From: a virus | Virus record (IMG/VR): IMGVR_UViG_3300018083_000094 | Coordinates: 1 to 30,917 of that record | Direction: 5' to 3' (one strand) | DNA length: 30,917 nt | In this document: positions 20,878 to 25,031 of the stretch, one piece after another | Layout: every line of letters begins with the position of its first letter | How positions within the stretch are numbered: the first letter of the stretch is position 1 | Position numbers and translations under genes: made by a program | The notes under the pieces: generated by a model | The model's input: only the letters and a program-made list of their open reading frames with translations | Told to the model about the DNA's origin: nothing | Database searches by the model: none

Positions 20878-21183
20878 ATGCCCGCCCTGGCCACGATGCC
20901 CTATAGCGCCTACCTCGACACCCCGCACTGGCAGAAGGTGCGCGCACTGGCCCTGCGGCGTGCTGCCCGCCACTGCCAGGTCTGCGGCGCCCGTGGCAAG
21001 CTGGATGTCCACCACAACACCTACGCCCGCCGCGGCCGTGAACTGCCCAGTGACGTGGTGGCGCTGTGCCGCTCCTGTCATGACCTGTATCACGCGCGAC
21101 GAACGAAGCAGTCCACGACAGTCCATGACAGAGTCGAGCAGTCCACGACAGTCCAGCGCAGGACACGACAGTCCAAGACATGA
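20878..21183 (+). CDS. HNH endonuclease of the packaging region
   Basis: This 101-residue protein has a treble-clef HNH core: C33 and C36 (CQVCG), H45-H46 (LDVHHNTY), C64, C67, H68 and H72 (LCRSCHDLYH). HNH proteins next to terminase genes help cut DNA at packaging in HK97-type phages (family knowledge). GAGAGGAGG lies before ATG 20878. The last 25 residues or so (KQSTTVHDRVEQSTTVQRRT) are low-complexity and are encoded by the decamer repeats, so that part of the DNA may be shaped by a non-coding role. Confidence 0.85.
   Translation: MPALATMPYSAYLDTPHWQKVRALALRRAARHCQVCGARGKLDVHHNTYARRGRELPSDVVALCRSCHDLYHARRTKQSTTVHDRVEQSTTVQRRTRQSKT
21111..21180. repeat. Seven tandem 10-bp repeats before the terminase genes
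   Basis: Seven decamers in exact 10-bp phase: GTCCACGACA, GTCCATGACA, GAGTCGAGCA, GTCCACGACA, GTCCAGCGCA, GGACACGACA, GTCCAAGACA. They end at the HNH stop codon and lie 53 bp before the small terminase start. One helical turn per unit would put all copies on one face, as expected of an array bound by an oligomeric protein such as small terminase. Confidence 0.75.
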
Positions 21184-21184
21184 T

Positions 21185-21205
21185 AGCCTAGGCGTATTCT
21201 AGGCT
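21185..21205. promoter_or_regulatory. 7-bp inverted repeat before the small terminase
   Basis: AGCCTAG (21185-21191), GCGTATT, CTAGGCT (21199-21205) is a perfect dyad in the gap at the start of the late block. TATTCT (21195-21200) could be a -10 element, but no -35 is visible. It shares CTAG half-sites with the dyad at 12769. Operator, terminator or part of a packaging site are all possible. Confidence 0.45.
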
Positions 21206-21233
21206 GGTGTGCTGTCACTGGAGGGCGAGAACG

Positions 21234-21674
21234 ATGCCGAAGGCATTGGCGCCGGCCGTCCGTGACCGCATCGTGGCCTTGCTGCACGAGGGCACACCAC
21301 GCAATGAGATCGCCCGCCAGGTCGGGTGTAGTGCCGGTATCGTGACGAAGATCGCCCAGGACGAAGGCGTATCGTTTGACCGGTCACAGTCAAGAATTGC
21401 CGTGGCCGTCAGGTGCGATTACGACCAGACCGCCCGCCTCGCCCTCCTGAACGCTGGCTTTGACAAGGCCGGCGAACTGCTGGCCGCCATCACCACGCCG
21501 AACCACTTGCAGACCTGGAGCGTGGCCCTGGCCGTCCTGATCGACAAGCGCCGCCTGGAAGATGGGGAGGCCACTGCTCGCACCGATGTCGTCACCAGTG
21601 ATGTCCGCGACCGAATCGCTCGCCGCCTCGATGAGCTCGCTGCCCGCCGCGACGCGCAGCGCGCTGCTGGCTGA
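21234..21674 (+). CDS. Small terminase subunit-like protein
   Basis: This 146-residue protein starts at ATG 21234 with GGAGGG nine bases before. Residues 5-50 (PAVRDRIVALLHEGTPRNEI, ARQVGCSAGIVTKIAQDEGV) are a helix-turn-helix, as in small terminase subunits, which recognise the packaging site and regulate the large subunit. The rest is helical (ALLNAGFDKAGELLAAITTP, VALAVLIDKRRLEDGEA), fitting an oligomerisation core. The gene precedes and overlaps the large subunit gene. The decamer array just upstream may be its target (inference). Confidence 0.75.
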   Translation: MPKALAPAVRDRIVALLHEGTPRNEIARQVGCSAGIVTKIAQDEGVSFDRSQSRIAVAVRCDYDQTARLALLNAGFDKAGELLAAITTPNHLQTWSVALAVLIDKRRLEDGEATARTDVVTSDVRDRIARRLDELAARRDAQRAAG

Positions 21675-22887
21675 GTTCTCTGACGCCGACCTGGCCGACC
21701 TGGAAGCTACCTGGCCCTTCTGGGCACGGCCCGAGCAACTGCCCCCCACCGCCCCCTGGCGAACCTGGCTTGTCATGGCCGGCCGCGGCTACGGCAAGAC
21801 GCGCACCGGCGCCGAGTGGACCCGCGCCAGCGCCAGCGCCTTCCGCTACGTCAACATCATCGGCGCCACTGCCGACGATGCACGCGACATCATGGTCGAA
21901 GGCGAGAGCGGCCTGCTCGCCATCTGTCCTGACCACGAGCGCCCGACCTACCTGCCCAGCAAACGGCGCCTCGACTGGCCCAACGGCGCCACCACCCTGA
22001 TCTTTACCGCCGACGAGCCCGAGCGCCTGCGCGGCAAGCAGCACGAGCGCCTGTGGGCCGATGAGGTCGCCGCCTGGCGCTACGCCGAGGCGTGGACGCA
22101 GGCCATGCTGGGCCTGCGCCTGGGCCGTGACCCGCGCGTCGTCGCCACCACCACTCCCCGTCCCACCCCGCTCATCCGCGATCTCCTCGCCGACCCGTCC
22201 ACTGCCGTGACCCGCGGCAGCACCTACGACAACGCCGCCAACCTGGCGCCCGCCTTCCTCCAGACGATCATCCGTCGCTATGAGGGCACACGGCTGGGCA
22301 GGCAGGAACTGCTGGCCGAACTGCTGACCGATGTCGACGGCGCGCTCTGGACCCATACCATGCTGGATGCGCGTCGCGTCACCGCCGCCCCCGAGCTGGC
22401 CCGCGTCGTGGTGGCGATCGACCCGGCCGTCACCTCTGGCGAGGACGCCGACGAGACCGGCATCATCGTCGCTGGCAAAGGCGTGGACGGTGACGGCTAC
22501 ATCCTGGCCGACCTGACCTGTCGCCTGTCACCCGATGGGTGGGCCAGGCGCGCGGTCAACGCCTACGAGGCGCACACCGCTGACCGCATCGTGGCTGAGG
22601 TCAACAATGGCGGCGACCTGGTCGAAACCGTCCTCCGCACCGTCGCGCCGCGTGTCAGCTACAAGAAGGTTCATGCCAGCCGCGGCAAGCGCACCCGCGC
22701 CGAACCCATCGCCGCACTCTACGAGCAAGGCCGCGTCCATCACGTTGGCGCGCTGTCGCAGTTGGAGGACCAGATGACGGCCTTTGTGCCCGACCACTAC
22801 GACGGCTCACCCGACCGCGTGGACGCGCTGGTCTGGGCGCTGACTGATCTGATGCTGACGACGAAGAAGAGCGTGCCCGTCCTGTGA
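21631..22887 (+). CDS. terL: Large terminase subunit (ATPase and nuclease)
   Basis: This motor protein pumps DNA into the capsid and cuts it. From ATG 21631 it is 418 residues: Walker A AGRGYGKT at 50-57, Walker B ERLWADEVAAW about 100 residues later, then an ATTTPRPTPLI coupling motif. The RNase H-like nuclease has VVVAIDPAVTSGEDADE, DRIVAEVNNGGD and SPDRVDALVWALTDL with the expected acidic residues. ATGs at 21562, 21586 and 21601 are also in frame; 21631 is preferred because SSLPAATRSALLAEFSDADL followed by WPFWARPEQ is where relatives normally begin, and it gives the shortest overlap. None of these starts has a well-spaced ribosome binding site. Confidence 0.93.
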   Translation: MSSLPAATRSALLAEFSDADLADLEATWPFWARPEQLPPTAPWRTWLVMAGRGYGKTRTGAEWTRASASAFRYVNIIGATADDARDIMVEGESGLLAICPDHERPTYLPSKRRLDWPNGATTLIFTADEPERLRGKQHERLWADEVAAWRYAEAWTQAMLGLRLGRDPRVVATTTPRPTPLIRDLLADPSTAVTRGSTYDNAANLAPAFLQTIIRRYEGTRLGRQELLAELLTDVDGALWTHTMLDARRVTAAPELARVVVAIDPAVTSGEDADETGIIVAGKGVDGDGYILADLTCRLSPDGWARRAVNAYEAHTADRIVAEVNNGGDLVETVLRTVAPRVSYKKVHASRGKRTRAEPIAALYEQGRVHHVGALSQLEDQMTAFVPDHYDGSPDRVDALVWALTDLMLTTKKSVPVL

Positions 22888-25031
22888 ACCCCATCCAACG
22901 GGCCTGGCACAGCGCGCTGGCCAGCCTCAAGAAGCTGTCCAGCATGGCCTTCCCGCAGGCCACCTACCAGTGGTGGTCGGGCGGCTACGGCCGCTCCCGC
23001 CTGGACTACCAGAGCGCGGTCGGCGATGGGCGCGGCAGCGCGATCGTCGTCGCCTGCATCCGCTGGCTCACCCGTGCCTTCCTCGAGGCGCCACTGCGCG
23101 TGCGCCGCTACGACGGCGACGATCTGGTGCCCGAGCCTCGCCACCCGCTGTTGGCCCTGGTGCGCCGCCCCAACCCCTACTACGCCGGCCGCGCCCTGTG
23201 GAAGGCCACCCTGGCCGACCGCCTGGTCACCGGCAACGCCTACTGGATCAAGGTCCGGTCGCAGGCGGGCCGTGTCGTCGAGCTCTGGTGGGCGCCGTCG
23301 TGGACGATGGAGCCGAAGTGGGACGAGGACGGGCGCACCTACATCAGCCATTACGAGTACAACGTCAGCCGCGGTGACCCCATCCGGCTGGACCCCAGCG
23401 AAGTCGTCCACTTCCGCGATCTGCTGGATCCGCACAATCCGCGCAAGGGCATCAGCCCACTGGCCACGCTCATGCGCGAGATCTTCACCGACGACGAGGC
23501 GAGCACGTTCACGGCGGCCCTGCTCACCAACCTGGGCGTGCCCGGCACCATCATCAGCGCCGGCGACAGCGACACCGAGATTACCCAGGACCAGGCCACC
23601 CAGATGAAGGCCGAGTTCGAGCACAAGTTCTCGGGTGACAACCGTGGGCGGGCGATGGTGCTGGGCGGCAACGTCAAGGTCAACACCGTCACCTTCACGC
23701 CCGAGCAGATGCAACTGACCCAACTGCGGCGCCTGCCCGAGGAGCGGGTGGCGGCGGTCCTGGGCACCCCAGCCGTGCTGGTCGGCCTCGGCGCTGGCAT
23801 GGACAAGATGATTTACAACAACTACAGCGAGGCCAGGGAAGCGGCATTCGAGGAGCACCTCATCCCGCTCGGGCAAGACCTGGCCGAAGAACTGATGCTC
23901 CAGCTCGTTCCCGACTTTGAGGACGTGACGAAGGTGGAGCTGGACTTCGACACCAGCACCATCCGGGTCTTGCAAGAAGATCAGAACGCGCTGGCGACGC
24001 GGCTGGAAGTCATGTTGCGGAGTGGCCAGGTGACGCTGGCCGAGGCGCGGCAACGCTGGGCCATGCCGCCCCTGGCCGACGTGCTGGCTGAGCGTGGCTC
24101 AGCCGAGCCTGACCCCGGCGACGTGCTGCTGCTGCCGAGTAGCATCAAGCCCATGCCGATTGAGGACTTGTTGCTCCCGCCGGCGCCACCTCCCACAATC
24201 GCGCCTCTGGTGCCTGTCGTGCCACCAGAGGCCGACGAGGGCGATGCTGAGGAGGAAGTGCCACCAACCAAGCGCCGGCGCCTCACAGGCCGCAAGGCGT
24301 TCAGCCAGCCGGACCAGTGGTTCACGCGGGCGGCCGATGACGTGGCGAGCCTGACCGATGACGCGACACCGCCGCTTGAGCGCCTGTTCGCTCGCACCGG
24401 TCGCGCCGTCCTGGCCGGCCTGCCCGCCAGTCTGCCCGTCAAGGCGCTGGTCCTGGCAGGCCACAGCAACGGGCGCAAGGCCGACGAACCCGTGCCGCCC
24501 GATCTCGCCAACCTGGTGCCCGGCAGTCACGAGCGCGACCTGACGCGCACGCTGCGCGACACGCACGAAGCGGCCATAGCGAAGGCGGCTGATAGCGTGG
24601 CAGACGGCCTCGGCATCTCATTCCAGTTGCCGTTCGAGGTGACGGATGACGTGCTGGATGGCCTGGCGACCCGCATTCGCGACATCGCTGACGGAACCCG
24701 TGACGACGTGCGGCGCATCGTCCGGCACGCACTGGACCGGGGCGCGACCATCGACGATCTGCGTGATGACCTGCGCGGGCTGTTCACCGAAACCTACCGC
24801 AACCGCTCACGCACGATTGCTCGCACCGAGAGCGGCACGGCCTACAACGCGGGCACGATTGCCAGTTACCGCGAGAGCGGCATCGTCACCGGCGTGCTGG
24901 TTCATGATGGCGAAGATGACGAGCCCTGTCGCAGTGCGAATGGGTCGACGTGGACGCTGGAGCAGGCGCAGGCTGAGCCGCTCGGCCATCCGAATTGCGT
25001 CAGGGCATTCAGCCCGGTCGTGGGAGAGTAG
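22884..25031 (+). CDS. Portal protein fused to a MuF-like head protein
   Basis: This 715-residue protein begins at GTG 22884 (GTGA overlap). Residues 1-410 are an HK97-type portal (VVACIRWLTRAFLEAPLRVR, LADRLVTGNAYWIKVRSQ, SEVVHFRDLLDPHNPRKGIS, GVPGTIISAGDSDTE, RLPEERVAAVLGTPAVLVGL), the 12-fold ring through which DNA passes. After a Pro- and acid-rich linker (residues 410-470), residues 530-715 form a MuF/SPP1 gp7-like head morphogenesis domain: RSRTIARTESGTAYNAG, DDEPCRSANGSTWTL, PLGHPNCVRAFSPVVGE. These are usually two genes; here one frame joins them without a stop. Confidence 0.9.
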   Translation: MNPIQRAWHSALASLKKLSSMAFPQATYQWWSGGYGRSRLDYQSAVGDGRGSAIVVACIRWLTRAFLEAPLRVRRYDGDDLVPEPRHPLLALVRRPNPYYAGRALWKATLADRLVTGNAYWIKVRSQAGRVVELWWAPSWTMEPKWDEDGRTYISHYEYNVSRGDPIRLDPSEVVHFRDLLDPHNPRKGISPLATLMREIFTDDEASTFTAALLTNLGVPGTIISAGDSDTEITQDQATQMKAEFEHKFSGDNRGRAMVLGGNVKVNTVTFTPEQMQLTQLRRLPEERVAAVLGTPAVLVGLGAGMDKMIYNNYSEAREAAFEEHLIPLGQDLAEELMLQLVPDFEDVTKVELDFDTSTIRVLQEDQNALATRLEVMLRSGQVTLAEARQRWAMPPLADVLAERGSAEPDPGDVLLLPSSIKPMPIEDLLLPPAPPPTIAPLVPVVPPEADEGDAEEEVPPTKRRRLTGRKAFSQPDQWFTRAADDVASLTDDATPPLERLFARTGRAVLAGLPASLPVKALVLAGHSNGRKADEPVPPDLANLVPGSHERDLTRTLRDTHEAAIAKAADSVADGLGISFQLPFEVTDDVLDGLATRIRDIADGTRDDVRRIVRHALDRGATIDDLRDDLRGLFTETYRNRSRTIARTESGTAYNAGTIASYRESGIVTGVLVHDGEDDEPCRSANGSTWTLEQAQAEPLGHPNCVRAFSPVVGE

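Follow-up and report, generated by a model that had tools for sequence, protein, structure and literature searches.

What does a run of seven 10-bp units do directly in front of the terminase genes of a tailed phage, and which protein, if any, reads it? The locus lies in an IMG/VR virus record of 30,917 bases, here called the window, whose genes run from the major tail protein and tape measure on the left, through other genes, to HNH endonuclease, TerS, TerL, portal, protease and capsid, with small unassigned genes after the capsid at the right end. The contig is broken where the head-tail genes give way to the major tail gene, an arrangement pointing to an almost complete genome of a tailed phage, opened between the head and the tail genes; it passes uninterrupted through the array locus. 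The relevant features are as follows.

20878 to 21183, plus strand: HNH endonuclease ORF, 101 aa, with the translated array as its C-terminal tail
21109 to 21180, plus strand: seven 10-bp units with a CA step every 5 bp, consensus CAGTCCACGA, in exact 10-bp register
21185 to 21205, no strand assigned: perfect inverted repeat AGCCTAG-N7-CTAGGCT, read directly, between array and terS
21199 to 21216, plus strand: leader CTAGGCTGGTGTGCTGTC, identical in relative L009
21234 to 21674, plus strand: small-terminase-like HTH protein, 146 aa, phrog_5536
21562 to 22887, plus strand: large terminase TerL (Terminase_6N and 6C)
22884 to 25031, plus strand: portal protein

The array is far beyond chance. A sequence-only reading of the window had reported seven decamers spaced by exactly 10 bp at 21111-21180, and direct reading, Tandem Repeats Finder (7.2 copies of 10 bp and 2.5 copies of 30 bp) and folding against shuffles all recover them. 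In this register the units are, in order, GTCCACGACA, GTCCATGACA, GAGTCGAGCA, GTCCACGACA, GTCCAGCGCA, GGACACGACA and GTCCAAGACA, with three columns (C, A and G) invariant across the array. Scanned over periods of 5-24, it is the top short-period repeat of the 30.9-kb window; folded as 7 x 10 bp it scores 12.1, with 66% matching pairs, against a best of 9.3 in 150 whole-window dinucleotide shuffles (periods 7-13). The runner-up fold periods of the window, 9, 6, 18, 15 and 12, are multiples of three, as expected for coding DNA. A second regularity had been missed earlier: CA starts 14 of 15 successive 5-mers read from 21109 (through 21183), while shuffles reach at most 10 on the same score and other dinucleotides at most 9 per 15 pentamers anywhere in the window. 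Flexible steps are accordingly phased at every half turn.

Since a 10-bp period is not the codon period, the repetition is a property of the DNA. Indeed, the array matches itself at 58% for a lag of 10, 65% for 20, 74% for 30 and 59% for 40, and at only 16-23% for lags of 3, 6, 9, 11, 12 and 21. The run does not end at a stop codon, as had been stated, but one nucleotide before the TGA (21181-21183) that closes the HNH frame. Likewise, the description of the encoded protein as low-complexity holds for the tail only; the remainder is a normal HNH endonuclease (PF01844, residues 33-74, E=6e-6, 26.8 bits vs a cut-off of 21.4), whose domain stops before the array and whose product also matches PHROG HNH families.

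The placement just before the terminase genes was read correctly: the array sits 55 bp upstream of terS, terS overlaps terL, and both follow directly. Between array and terS, the inverted repeat is a possible operator or hairpin, and TAGGCT (21200-21205) may represent a -10 box and hence part of a terS promoter. Scans of the locus returned no sigma-70 consensus promoter, no terminator by consensus, and no tRNA or known RNA family. Further into terS, TGACCGGTCACAG at 21377-21389 (palindrome TGACCGGTCA) is identical in the terS of the relative L008 and similar to the ACCGGTCAC unit of the L010 array.

The identity of the 21234-21674 product as a small terminase is put forward mainly from its position directly upstream of terL, complemented by its domain order. 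AlphaFold2 predicts an N-terminal three-helix HTH, a long helical hairpin and a C-terminal helix, the predicted helical portion being of the kind expected for oligomerisation. HTH profiles match, the best (HTH_7) slightly below its cut-off, and the best PHROG, phrog_5536, is a family without assigned function. When the model was compared with PDB folds, nothing matched significantly, solved TerS structures included; 2ao9 (phBC6A51), which is listed among small terminases (PMC11331095), appeared at rank 16 with a non-significant E of 0.26.

Comparison with relatives, which the sequence-only reading had proposed as a check, gave a divided answer. IMG/VR scans yielded a small group of phages with related TerS, three of which (L009, L010 and L011) carry arrays in the equivalent position but with different sequences, whereas L008 carries none. 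L009 (TerS 63% identical) has five 9-bp units, TGCGAGATC, from 113 bp before terS and, as in the window, upstream of the conserved leader. In L010 and L011 (TerS 60%) the array, ACCGGTCGTT, has a 10-bp period and counts up to 12 units; it begins 163 bp and 143 bp upstream of terS, respectively. In each of the three, no short-period repeat in the scanned sequence scores higher than the array. The arrays of L009 and L010 are apparently non-coding, and the gene directly upstream of them is not HNH; together with the 10- and 20-bp periodicity, such differing arrays support the earlier proposal that selection acts on the DNA. Over 6062 bp, L010 and L011 differ by 7 substitutions and one 20-bp gap, and this sole indel removes exactly two units from inside the array. 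The near-identical contigs L048 and L049, from different metagenomes, show a two-unit array loss as their sole indel in 6 kb. Homology between the units of the window and those of L010 was considered and rejected, the best alignment (6/10) being at chance level.

L008 is the closest relative (TerS 73%, TerL 77%, HNH 85% over residues 1-72). It has no array between HNH and terS and none comparable in its 6.1-kb contig, and its terS begins ~36 nt past the HNH domain, without leader, spacer or HNH tail. Nor was an array seen in the more distant TerS relatives (L012, L013 and L026), upstream of TerL in relatives with other small terminases, or before the TerL of prophage relatives; the sequences of L035 and L027, with ~100 bp in front of terS, are hardly informative here. 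A first GTDB scan found no close relatives. Profile searches covering samples of the phyla to which a Chloroflexi and an Actinocrispum genome belong produced a single clear relative, L293 (phylum of Actinocrispum), a prophage-type small-terminase relative (E 4e-40) with no array upstream, from which it appears that actinobacteria may host phages with this TerS type.

We searched IMG/VR for CAGTCCANGACAGTCCA and for three CAGTCC spaced 9-11 bp. In a phage family of ~16 kb (L119, L144 (L263), L159, L168 and others), an HNH gene leads into CAGTCC repeats of 10-bp period that directly precede terL, the order being HNH, C-run, array, terL. As in the window, the array lies in the HNH 3' end directly before a terminase gene; unlike the window, the family has a TerL of phrog_9, no recognisable TerS and 3-5 clear units, and homology is not established. 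The family was found by searching with the window's unit, and the unit similarity is therefore not independent evidence. Identical ends over 127 bp in one contig (G010) put the genome unit at ~15.7-16.2 kb. G009 (16,164 bp) opens at the C-run, 35 bp short of the array, and closes at that C-run within the HNH gene, the full-length G008 is broken at this joint too, where a short stretch is missing, and 5/10 contigs begin <=80 bp before the array, while contigs spanning the joint read through without interruption. In the simplest reading the break is probably a cos end with the array just inside, a layout comparable to that of the TerS site at HK97 cos (PMC11331095), contig breaks being indirect evidence for ends. 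Because no TerS is recognisable, the array of this family may be read by something other than TerS. For several members of the family, pyrimidine-purine steps at 5-bp intervals are likewise best developed in the array. CAGTCC arrays occur in ~25 other phage contigs, and those checked outside the family gave no sign of an array just before a terminase gene; the motif alone is thus not a packaging mark.

The account we favour, to which we give about an even chance, is that the array is a packaging recognition array of pac or cosB type. TerS would be its probable reader, and the terS promoter may overlap with it. It would form the recognition part of the packaging initiation site, either pac or the binding part of cos. 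A small-terminase ring would sit on the array with one HTH per subunit, spaced by about one DNA turn, each meeting the same face of a unit, and the flexible CA steps at each half turn may help the contact between ring and array. The large terminase, perhaps with the HNH nuclease, would cut nearby. As the array abuts the terS start region, bound TerS may also repress its own gene, as has been reported in SPP1. While the analysis shows the array, its register, its DNA-level nature and its place, we infer the binder, the cut, the start of packaging and the repression. The order HNH-array-terS-terL places the array where pac and cos binding sites sit, and units that follow one another at one-turn intervals match the geometry of the presumed TerS ring. 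The proposal of a packaging site made from the sequence gains from this pac- and cos-like setting, from the differing arrays that relatives with related TerS carry there and from the similar array inside the apparent cos end of the unrelated 16-kb family. It loses from the closest relative being devoid of an array, from the 9-bp rather than 10-bp spacing in L009, from a contig that runs freely through the locus, from the poor specificity reported for SF6 DNA-binding domains, and from the possible terS promoter alongside.

Because the array abuts that possible promoter, a regulatory reading stands alongside packaging, in which a phage or host transcription regulator other than TerS would bind the phased sites and control the late operon. 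Direct repeats phased at 10-11 bp are used by many regulators. The window array ends 20 bp before the TAGGCT -10-like box, which is conserved in L009, the L010 array extends to TGATATGAT, an extended -10-like sequence, and L008 is without spacer and leader as well as array. The sigma-70 scan, however, matched no promoter, and among the relatives with arrays no candidate regulator emerged as a common component, which TerS is; we consider such an operator unlikely. A functionless tandem repeat generated by replication slippage would account for array sequences that are wholly different between relatives, for their absence from the closest one and for the differing unit number of L010 and L011. 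Yet at ~60% unit identity the register has not slipped once in seven units (12 in L010), CA recurs at 14 of 15 half-turn steps, and arrays stand at the same place in three lineages, making neutrality distinctly improbable.

The remaining alternatives concern the HNH gene. The endonuclease rather than TerS might read the array, for cos nicking or self-regulation, as both the window and the 16-kb family, itself without recognisable TerS, have an array of similar units in the HNH tail before the terminase. We hold this to be very unlikely, given that the gene upstream of the L009 and L010 arrays is not HNH and that the unit similarity was searched for. Selection on the repetitive protein tail would agree with its 10-residue repeat (QSTTVHDRVE/QSTTVQRRTR/QSKT) and with the best match at a lag of 30. 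It is nevertheless largely refuted by the 10- and 20-bp periodicity, since lags that break the frame still match at 58 and 65%; with the HNH of L008 devoid of the tail and the L009 and L010 arrays apparently non-coding, this explanation is hardly credible.

How does a packaging array of this design compare with known sites? In lambda, several terminase binding sites, the R sites of cosB, lie between the cut and the terS gene; they are three in number and irregularly spaced, with an IHF site. They are longer than the window's units, and their irregular trio differs from seven phased repeats. At the pac site of SPP1, direct repeats extend over the promoters and the beginning of terS, neighbouring HTHs in TerS rings are about one turn of B-DNA apart, and the terminase operon is repressed when small terminase occupies pac (PMC4737164). 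The window resembles SPP1 and SF6 in having repeats at the putative promoter region and start of terS, a predicted HTH-type TerS encoded beside the site and, for the presumed ring, an HTH spacing of about one turn; however, the SPP1 boxes are of three kinds (A, B and C), while the window has seven units of one kind in an unbroken 10-bp register. When isolated, the DNA-binding domains of SF6 TerS bind pac repeats with little or no specificity (PMC4737164). The cos site of HK97 offers a parallel in that an HNH protein (gp74) stimulates its cleavage (PMC9410871) and that TerS binds just inside the cut, at 15-29 bp (PMC11331095). It differs in presenting one 15-bp site, read as the DNA leaves the ring tunnel (PMC11331095), in place of seven phased units. 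Repeated terminase sites are hence already established by the SPP1 boxes and the lambda R sites, and what is new here is a single run in exact helical register; the open-licence literature yielded no description of an array like this beside terminase genes.

Whether TerS recognises DNA that wraps round the ring or threads through it is disputed, and in vitro binding by most TerS proteins is weak and lacks clear specificity (PMC9611059, PMC11331095). A bolder and somewhat unlikely generalisation is that DNA wraps the outside of the HTH TerS ring by means of near-identical units phased at one turn, one per subunit, with flexible steps at each half turn, in which case, from phage to phage, unit sequence and phase would vary in step with the recognition helix of TerS. 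Seven phased units beside an HTH-type TerS gene, together with the other arrays of the relatives, would offer a ready-made substrate for testing wrapping and specificity. If the array is a packaging site, few such sites would be expected to show comparable regularity.
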